A program made the position numbers and the translations under genes. 43,935 nucleotides of DNA from Holophagaceae bacterium. Its GTDB lineage: Bacteria; Acidobacteriota; Holophagae; Holophagales; Holophagaceae. The notes beneath the pieces were generated by a model, which was given only the letters and a program-made list of their open reading frames with translations, was not told the origin of the DNA and did no database searches. This document shows, piece after piece, positions 2,156 through 4,443 of this stretch; position 1 is the stretch's first letter, and each line of letters starts with the position of its first letter. The stretch lies in assembly GCA_023257195.1 (NCBI GenBank), contig JALRCU010000019.1:1-43935 (forward strand). The letters run 5' to 3'.

Positions 2156-2321
2156 ACCCCAATCTTTCTTCGATGGGTGGCGACCTCTGCAGGAAGCCCC
2201 TTCCCTTTTTTTGAAGGGTTTCATGGAGCGATCGCTCGTGTTCTTCCCTCTTGGAAGCACGATGAAGAACCGCCTAGGGCCGGAAGCCCACCTACCTTTA
2301 AGTGGCCTTTAGGCCCTGGAG
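2156..2321 (+). promoter_or_regulatory. Multi-branched structured leader RNA of pnp
   Basis: The leader can fold into a closed junction. The closing helix pairs 2175-2182 (GGGTGGCG) with CGCC at 2271-2274 and ACCT at 2290-2293. Inside are hairpins 2193-2222 (about 10 bp with one bulged C), 2226-2237 (GAGC GATC GCTC) and 2240-2270 (GTTCTTC with GAAGAAC). A small hairpin at 2277-2289 (GGGC, CGGAA, GCCC) sits on the 3' side. A further hairpin, GGCC TTTA GGCC (2304-2315), lies just before the GGAG ribosome site at 2318-2321. GTGG at 2302-2305 could instead pair with CCAC at 2288-2291 and break the closing helix. In E. coli the pnp leader is folded and cut for autoregulation; this shape does not look like that simple hairpin. 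Folding was done by eye. Confidence 0.5.
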
Positions 2322-2328
2322 TATATAT

Positions 2329-4443
2329 ATGAATTTGAATACCCTCGCTTTTCAACCCATTCAGCAATCCATTAATTTGGGTCAAGGGGCTGAGATCTCA
2401 ATCGAAACCGGCCGAATTGCAAAACAGGCTGCGGGCGCTGTGGTGATCCGACAGGGAGACACCATGGTCTTAGTGGCGGTTTGTCACGCTGTTCCCCGTC
2501 AAGAATTAGACTATTTCCCTTTGTCCGTGGATTATCGTGAAGCAGTGTTTGCTGCGGGAAAAATTCCTGGGGGTTGGTTTAAGCGAGAAGGTAAGGCTAC
2601 CACCAAAGAAACGCTCACATCCCGTCTCATTGATCGGCCTCTACGTCCTCTTTTTGAGGAGGGCTACAATGCCGAAGTCATGGTGACTGCACAAGTGATT
2701 AGCTACGACGGGATTCATGCACCCGAGACCTTGGCGATGACCGGGGCATCGGCAGCATTAATTATTTCAGAAATTCCATTCCATCAGCCCGTAGGTGGTG
2801 TGCGAGTCGGTCGTATCCAGGGTCAATTCGTGATAAATCCTACCATCATCCAACGTAAAGAAAGTGATTTAGACCTTCTGATTGCAGGTACGAAAGACGC
2901 GATTGTGATGGTGGAATGTGGCGCCCAAGAAGTGGATGAAACCGACATGGTTCAAGCGCTTGTCTTCGGACATAACCATATAAAAACACTTGCTAAGTTT
3001 CAAGAGGATTTCAAAGCAAAAGTAGGCAAACCAAAGGTTAAAGTTGAGAAGAAATCGATCGATACAACATTACTCCAAACTATCAGCTCTACCTATCGTG
3101 GGGATTTACTAACGGCCCTGACTCTCAAAAATAAACTTGAAAGCTACAAAGCAATCGATCAGCTCAAGGCGACGGTTGTGGAAACCCATACCGCTGAGCA
3201 ACCTGAACGCAAAGGAGAAGTGAAAGCCTGCTTTGATCATCTAAAGGAATCCATTTTCAGAGAAATGATCTTACAAAAAGGCGAGCGCTTGGATGGTCGT
3301 CGATTTGATCAAATTCGACCGCTCAATATTGAAGTCGGTCTTCTTCCTGGAGCCCATGGCTCTGCCTTATTTACTCGAGGAGAAACCCAAGCCCTTGTTA
3401 CCACCACATTGGGTACTCAAGATGATATTCAGACCATTGAGGGTCTCGAAGATGAAGTGAAGAAGTCTTTTTATCTTCACTATAATTTTCCAGGCTATTC
3501 AGTGGGGGAATGCAAACCCAATCGAGGTCCTGGGCGACGAGAAATTGGTCATGGTATGTTGGCGGAACGTGCGTTAGCAGCCGTGTTGCCGGATCGCAAA
3601 GAAAACCCCTACACCGTTCGCGTGGTGAGTGATATCACCGAAAGTAACGGCTCCTCATCTATGGCCACCATCTGTGGAGGATGCCTATCTCTTATGGATG
3701 CAGGCATTAAATTAAAAGCGCCGGTAGCCGGCGTGGCAATGGGTTTAGTCAGCGGGGAAGGACAATTTGTGGTCCTCACGGATATTGCCGGGCAAGAAGA
3801 TCACTACGGTGATATGGATTTTAAAGTCGCTGGAACAACCCAAGGCATCACGGCTCTTCAAATGGATATTAAAGTTGGTGGTATCACAACCGATGTGCTC
3901 ACTCGAGCTCTCGATCAGGCTCGCAAAGGCAGATTGGAACTCTTGGAATCCATGGGCGCGATATTAGCAGCCCCGCGATCATCTTTCGCTAAGAATGCTC
4001 CCCAAATGGCTTCGATACAGTTGCCCAAAGACAAGATTCGTGACGTCATTGGTAAAGGAGGAGCTACGATCCGAAATATCATCGAAGTTTCTGGATGTGA
4101 AGTCAATATCGATGACAATGGTCTCTGTCAAGTTGCGGGTCCTAATCAAGAAAAACTCCAATCTGCATTAAAGATGATCGGTGATCTCATTCAAACCGCT
4201 GAACTGGGTAAATCTTACCTAGGTAAAGTCGCTAAGGTTGTAGAATTTGGTGCTTTTGTTACCATCCTTCCGGGTCTCGACGGACTTTTGCATGTGAGCG
4301 AAATGGCCGCTCATCGCGTGAAGAATCCATCGGATGAGGTCAGTGAAGGTCAGGAGATCTTAGTGAAGTGCATTGGCATCGATGAAAAGAGCGGGAAGAT
4401 TAAGCTTTCACGCAAAGCACTCTTACCACCGGCCACCGAATAA
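2329..4443 (+). CDS. pnp: Polyribonucleotide nucleotidyltransferase (PNPase)
   Basis: A 3'-to-5' phosphorolytic exoribonuclease that degrades RNA in the cytoplasm, commonly in a degradosome. It has 704 residues, the normal length. Two RNase PH-like domains (about 12-230 and 325-540) flank an all-helical linker. The catalytic second PH domain carries GDMDFKVAGT. They are followed by a KH domain with VIGKGGATIR and an S1 domain (GKVAKVVEFGAFVTILPGLDG) reaching almost to the C-terminus. The ATG at 2329 is chosen because GGAG lies seven bases upstream and the family begins there; an upstream in-frame ATG at 2302 lies inside the leader hairpins. rpsO, often just upstream of pnp, is absent. Confidence 0.97.
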   Translation: MNLNTLAFQPIQQSINLGQGAEISIETGRIAKQAAGAVVIRQGDTMVLVAVCHAVPRQELDYFPLSVDYREAVFAAGKIPGGWFKREGKATTKETLTSRLIDRPLRPLFEEGYNAEVMVTAQVISYDGIHAPETLAMTGASAALIISEIPFHQPVGGVRVGRIQGQFVINPTIIQRKESDLDLLIAGTKDAIVMVECGAQEVDETDMVQALVFGHNHIKTLAKFQEDFKAKVGKPKVKVEKKSIDTTLLQTISSTYRGDLLTALTLKNKLESYKAIDQLKATVVETHTAEQPERKGEVKACFDHLKESIFREMILQKGERLDGRRFDQIRPLNIEVGLLPGAHGSALFTRGETQALVTTTLGTQDDIQTIEGLEDEVKKSFYLHYNFPGYSVGECKPNRGPGRREIGHGMLAERALAAVLPDRKENPYTVRVVSDITESNGSSSMATICGGCLSLMDAGIKLKAPVAGVAMGLVSGEGQFVVLTDIAGQEDHYGDMDFKVAGTTQGITALQMDIKVGGITTDVLTRALDQARKGRLELLESMGAILAAPRSSFAKNAPQMASIQLPKDKIRDVIGKGGATIRNIIEVSGCEVNIDDNGLCQVAGPNQEKLQSALKMIGDLIQTAELGKSYLGKVAKVVEFGAFVTILPGLDGLLHVSEMAAHRVKNPSDEVSEGQEILVKCIGIDEKSGKIKLSRKALLPPATE

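Follow-up and report, generated by a model that had tools for sequence, protein, structure and literature searches.

The pnp locus and its leader

The window, by which we mean the whole 43,935-nucleotide stretch of DNA analyzed here, comes from a member of the Holophagaceae, a family of soil and water bacteria, and carries pnp on its plus strand (positions 2329 to 4443). The product of 704 amino acids is polynucleotide phosphorylase (PNPase), an RNA-degrading enzyme central to bacterial RNA decay; its translation and homologue matches agree on this assignment, with full-length matches in outgroup genomes at 51 to 55% identity. Upstream, a gene with its start codon at 2051 runs in the opposite direction and is presumably MraY-like. 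The pnp leader that follows is ~175 nt long, and all of its parts lie on the plus strand. An extended −10 promoter box, which an earlier note on this DNA had mentioned, is read at 2141 to 2149 (TGCTATACT), and an equivalent box (TGnTAnnnT) stands 37 to 48 nt 5′ of the conserved core in 30 of 35 leaders that share less than 90% identity, compared to 0.9 expected from shuffled sequences. Given this spacing, transcription probably begins near 2155, at the foot of the first hairpin, and the element would thus form the first part of the mRNA.

The architecture conserved in sequence comparisons is a predicted 5′ hairpin, a pseudoknot or closing helix, an invariant irregular hairpin, and a hairpin before the Shine-Dalgarno sequence. 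In the window, the 5′ hairpin P1 (2155 to 2179; CACCC/GGGUG plus AUC/GAU, with loop UUUCUUC) is drawn from the predicted fold and a permutation test, and the irregular hairpin P2 (2180 to 2235), the core of the element, from an alignment of 23 sequences, the family genomes, and the window fold. The loop of P1 holds the 5′ strand of the pseudoknot helix PK (UUCUUC, 2166 to 2171), whose partner GAAGAA occupies 2264 to 2269; both strands were assigned by permutation of genera. UUCUUC occurs twice in this leader (2166 to 2171 and 2241 to 2246), and either copy can pair with GAAGAA; a similar doublet is found in the other two members of the window's genus. The last hairpin, P3 (2304 to 2315), pairs GGCC at 2304 to 2307 with GGCC at 2312 to 2315 across a UUUA loop, directly 5′ of the Shine-Dalgarno sequence UGGAG (2317 to 2321, by direct reading). 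This GGCC hairpin at the ribosome site had been pointed out in the earlier note and is both real and conserved, and its position was likewise assigned by permutation of genera. A GGAG or GGAA serves as the Shine-Dalgarno sequence in 35 of 35 leaders. The apparent pnp start in one leader (L008, genome G006) is TTG rather than ATG.

Two further hairpins are insertions. P2b (2236 to 2262; UCGUG/CACGA and CUUCC/GGAAG, from the fold) follows the core in Geothrix as well as the window's genus, and one same-genus leader (L003) has a different but equally placed hairpin there. Comparison also identifies P4 (2277 to 2289), a small hairpin of the window's genus (g1) and of genome G011 (genus g10), which appears as GGGC/GCCC in the window, GAGC/GCUC in L002, and GAGCC/GGCUC in L006. 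A larger insertion was observed in two genomes of genus g4, where a 270-base element (after 1575 on the plus strand in L057 and after 1575 in reverse in L052) separates the PK strand from P3, so that it is flanked by the core on one side and by P3 and the ribosome site on the other. Its inverted ends, GAGTGCCTAACA ... TGTTAGGCACTC, are reminiscent of integron attC ends.

Distribution of the leader across the Holophagaceae

A covariance model of the core (R1) matched 59 of 77 family genomes and 43 of the 48 good ones. Eighteen family genomes gave no core. Seventeen of these lack a full PNPase match: 16 yield short S1-domain matches only, accompanied in some by weak mid-protein PNPase matches (26 to 29% identical), and G032 yields none. 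In the remaining genome, G020, the contig ends within pnp, at PNPase residue 86. Since all 18 thus have no assembled pnp 5′ end, the core stands 5′ of pnp in every Holophagaceae genome in which that end is assembled. The earlier note had made its reading depend on conservation among near relatives, and the leader in fact extends across the family. It is retained in the window's own 1.2-Mb genome and in a 0.9-Mb relative (84% complete).

Outside the family, R1 had no match in 16 other genomes of the class, and a search of 396 genomes from across the phylum matched 38, of which 37 were Holophagaceae. The single match outside the family (G287, 33.7 bits) we attribute to chance, as it falls inside another gene on a 5.5-kb piece with no pnp. 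Weak R1 matches near pnp and rpsO in outgroup genome G042 lie on the opposite strand and were discarded. Searched at the DNA level, 24 of 60 related genomes gave matches, which beyond the window's genus are restricted to the core (about 2163 to 2238) or to the beginning of pnp. When one genome from each of 84,980 species was scanned with a pattern, 49 stretches were recovered, labeled Holophagaceae, Holophagales, Holophaga, Geothrix, or plain Acidobacteria/Acidobacteriota, with one labeled Bacillota (a 3,195-base contig, equal in length to the G009 contig of this family). The cultured species Geothrix fermentans is among the carriers. The same motif had no matches in viral contigs.

The element is closely tied to pnp. 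The gene lies 33 to 334 nt downstream in 47 of the 49 scan stretches, the other two ending before it could appear, and at the same distances in 74 of 75 whole-genome loci; at the 75th (L052) pnp was not found, and the contig ends at an ATG start. Each genome has one match, except for G030, which has two, both 5′ of pnp-like genes. The two G030 leaders (L059 and L060) differ, and their genes encode proteins that share 72% and 65% identity with the PNPase of the window in the aligned portion, reflecting either a mixture of strains or a true duplication. The earlier note had also entertained an independent small RNA. We reject this candidate, since no transcription terminator was found in the interval from the core to pnp and the element stays near pnp. 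The only terminator-like pattern (2192 to 2204 plus a T run) is inside the core hairpin, compared to 0.4 expected by chance.

A near-invariant core hairpin

The core alignment comprises 23 rows, obtained from 25 motif-bearing loci after removal of two identical sequences. RNAalifold folds these cores into a single long hairpin with regular 1×1 mismatches, in which GCGA.C.CU.CA.GAAGCCC pairs with GGGUUUC.UG.AG.G.UCGC (dots mark the mismatches). The near-invariant strands are GACCUCUGCAGGAAGCCC...GGGUUUCAUGGAG-N-GAUC; GACCUCUGCAGGAAGCCC and UUUCAUGGAG-N-GAUC are unchanged across all 23 cores, and 35 columns of the alignment are invariant, as in an aptamer-like core. What variation there is respects the helix: the outer C-G pair of P2 becomes U-A in four of 23 rows, and in genus g11 G.U is replaced by A-U, A-U by G-U, and G.A by U-A. 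The presence of G.U pairs assigns the structure to the pnp strand. One of 35 leaders (L045) gave no predicted P2 pairing at all.

How could such a core be explained? One possibility is that P2 and PK together form an aptamer for a small molecule signaling RNA turnover or energy state, binding of which would alter access to the Shine-Dalgarno sequence through P3 and PK. Long runs of near-invariant unpaired and mismatched positions in a pseudoknotted fold that adjoins a ribosome-site hairpin are consistent with this reading, and conservation of that kind is typical of aptamers. If true, the leader would represent a new RNA class, in which an invariant pseudoknotted core responds to a small molecule by switching the synthesis of PNPase, and it would be a riboswitch for an exoribonuclease, of which none is known to us. 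We consider this unlikely, however, as the element occurs before a single gene, once per genome, in one bacterial family, and resembles no riboswitch in Rfam. The Rfam scan of the window gave no match to the leader at gathering level and none that was convincing at E values up to 10, and scans of five relatives' loci matched no family, in keeping with the earlier note, which had recognized no known riboswitch class. A 6S RNA candidate elsewhere in the genome (G000:C54:57063-57233) scored 36.4 bits against a cut-off of 46.4 and was dropped.

A second possibility is that the pseudoknot merely shields the 5′ end of pnp mRNA from RNase E or RppH and regulates nothing. The structured part does start at the inferred transcription start, but simple hairpins suffice to protect mRNA 5′ ends and an invariant core sequence would be unnecessary, which makes this explanation quite improbable. 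Scarcely credible is a small upstream reading frame that starts at an ATG in P2 and controls pnp by coupling or stalling. The ATGGAG of P2 is often preceded by a GGAGGG-like word, but this word is gone in genus g11, and across 35 leaders the frame falls in all three registers relative to pnp with a variable stop position. We reject this candidate because the frame is not conserved.

Covariation between genera supports the pseudoknot and P3

There were 124 motif occurrences, in 11 of which no pnp start was located by pattern; the rest represent 55 distinct leaders, 35 of which remain at less than 90% identity. L008 and L065 were added back for the PK swap and permutation tests, giving 37 leaders from 11 genera. 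A first PK test with free placement returned many chance helices (own mean of 19.1, compared to 15.5 for swaps and 16.3 for shuffles), so narrower pairing windows were used instead, those for genus g1 and L006 being set by hand. Because the PK strand was misregistered in the MAFFT alignment, pairing was scored without column-wise pair counts. We then exchanged whole genera among the 11.

PK is the predicted pairing of the P1 loop with a strand just 3′ of the core, as a pseudoknot or closing helix, and its two strands change together. The types include GCUCCC/GGGAGC (in many Geothrix), GCUUCC/GGAAGC, GUUCCC/GGGAAC, GCCCCCG/CGGGGGC, GCUCGCCCU/AGGGCGGGC, GCUCCUGAA/UUCAGGAGC, and the UUCUUC/GAAGAA of the window. 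None of 20,000 permutations reached the true score for PK (16.7, compared to a permuted mean of 13.7 with a standard deviation of 0.6) or for P3 (15.5 compared to 13.2). The arms of P3 were mis-cut in genus g11, an error that lowers rather than raises its score. The covariation that the earlier note had proposed as a check on its leader is thus present, and both PK and P3 are predicted helices established by comparison between genera. P1 is weaker than the other helices (355 of 20,000 permutations; 11.5 compared to 10.4): it is likely to form in several genera and is not clear in g2, g7, and g8. In leaders without P1, the PK helix simply closes over the core, and in g7 and g8 PK is short and resembles an extension of P2. 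Taken one at a time, eight leaders (L005, L009, L014, L016, L017, L065, L066, and L067) have PK scores that many swaps match. Within the window's genus, the evidence for PK comes from three near relatives, and a local helix is a competitor.

These helices differ from those drawn in the earlier note, which had described a closed junction with four inner hairpins. The leader does fold better than shuffled sequences (z of −2.3 for 2156 to 2321 and −2.9 for 2150 to 2340) and is conserved, but the junction was not confirmed. Its closing helix, which from the description we take to be GGUGG (2176 to 2180) with CCACC (2288 to 2292), overlaps conserved helices and is unsupported outside the genus. Similarly, the proposed alternative pairing of CCAC (2288 to 2291) with GTGG (2302 to 2305) does appear when the window is folded to minimum energy, but it is out of reach of both same-genus relatives: L002 lacks the two words at this place and L003 has CCAC without GTGG. 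Both relatives keep the pairing of P3 and P4 despite changed bases. We therefore reject these mutually exclusive helices. Folding energy alone cannot fix the strand, since the opposite strand folds as well (z of −3.5), and the case rests on comparison.

Possible mechanisms of pnp control

We are almost certain that the element is a conserved, family-specific, cis-acting leader of pnp. The broader proposal of the earlier note, a leader that controls PNPase, holds in that the RNA is structured, conserved, and belongs to pnp, which it probably controls, but not in the exclusive helices named for the purpose. Control is rather likely to be exerted at translation instead of transcription. Across 35 predicted ensembles the Shine-Dalgarno sequence has a mean unpaired probability of 0.30, with its main partner being the 5′ P1/PK strand in 19, the P3 region in nine, the linker in six, and the core in one; translational control is thus plausible.

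By analogy, the most likely role is autogenous control by PNPase, to which we would give about even weight. The leading place of this idea follows from the occurrence of the leader before one gene, in one copy per genome (two in G030), where the target is a nuclease that controls itself in E. coli. Confinement to a single gene would point to an autogenous operator rather than to a metabolite regulon. P2 would be recognized by a trans-acting factor, for which the best candidate is PNPase itself through its KH/S1 domains, perhaps assisted by RNase III or RNase E. Both RNase III and RNase E/G are usual helpers; the former is encoded in 15 of 15 genomes and the latter in 14. When PNPase is sufficient, translation of pnp mRNA would decrease or its decay would accelerate. 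PK might transmit P2 binding to the ribosome site, its making or breaking freeing or covering the Shine-Dalgarno sequence. This coupling is a weakly supported step in the model, as the folding calculations excluded pseudoknots and the PK strand varies between genera while the Shine-Dalgarno sequence is constant. A nuclease should not need so nearly invariant a sequence, which would be compatible with a small-molecule site as well.

Alternatively, another RNA-binding protein, such as ribosomal protein S15 or CsrA, may bind P2 and regulate pnp. The S15 gene, rpsO, normally precedes pnp, and in two outgroup genomes (G039 and G042) an rpsO match precedes that of pnp by ~40 and ~150 bases. Nine Holophagaceae genomes were searched for rpsO; G001 gave none, and in all eight genomes where it was found it is far from pnp or on another contig. 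A co-regulation lost through this separation might have been replaced, and P2 also contains GGA words of the kind that would suit this reading. However, 10 rpsO loci (eight from Holophagaceae) had no R1 match assignable to rpsO, only chance-level or opposite-strand matches. The csrA gene is missing from all three genomes in the window's genus as well as from G025, all four of which keep the leader, so CsrA cannot be the general partner and was rejected as the factor; the invariant positions would in any case be far beyond its needs. Altogether, we regard a protein other than PNPase as fairly unlikely.

From the separation of rpsO and pnp in this family we infer that pnp left the rpsO operon and gained its leader at the base of the family. 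The near-invariant core is a compact RNA amenable to testing, through which the cues that set PNPase levels could be identified.

Comparison with known pnp leaders

Our literature search, which did not extend to a 2017 candidate-RNA survey, found no earlier report of a Holophagaceae pnp leader, and the main text of two later motif papers does not mention pnp. Two known systems are comparable. Actino-pnp (RF01688) is described in its published entries as a conserved structured RNA in the pnp 5′ UTR of Actinomycetales (PMC2864571; PMC8079986), and Table 1 of the former lists it as RNA and cis-regulatory, not as a switch (PMC2864571). The Holophagaceae element similarly occupies the pnp 5′ UTR (the 74 of 75 loci above), but Actino-pnp belongs to Actinomycetales taxa and the Holophagaceae leader does not match the RF01688 model: in 14 genomes this model had no match at any pnp leader, and all of its matches were below the cut-off and elsewhere.

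In E. coli, autogenous control of PNPase is reported (PMC10362022, PMC3997798, PMC3328962); the enzyme targets its own message via the 5′ UTR, in part by binding it while leaving it intact (PMC10362022). Both systems have a structured pnp 5′ UTR, and we consider the E. coli leader a functional analogue. A leader of the E. coli type is controlled by RNase III cutting a duplex within it, after which PNPase acts. It differs in that the conserved part in Holophagaceae is a pseudoknotted, near-invariant irregular hairpin with its own promoter, away from rpsO; the rpsO-pnp context of the E. coli-type leader is not found in the eight Holophagaceae genomes where rpsO was located. The rne 5′ UTR, through which RNase E is described as controlling its own mRNA (PMC3997798), offers an analogy of nuclease self-control only, as the gene, enzyme, and RNA differ. 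We conclude that the Holophagaceae pnp leader is a different RNA from both the E. coli leader and Actino-pnp. It adds a third kind of structured pnp leader to the two known, one that apparently arose with loss of the rpsO-pnp arrangement and is kept even in genomes of ~1.2 Mb, which suggests repeated evolution of PNPase control through the 5′ UTR of its own mRNA.
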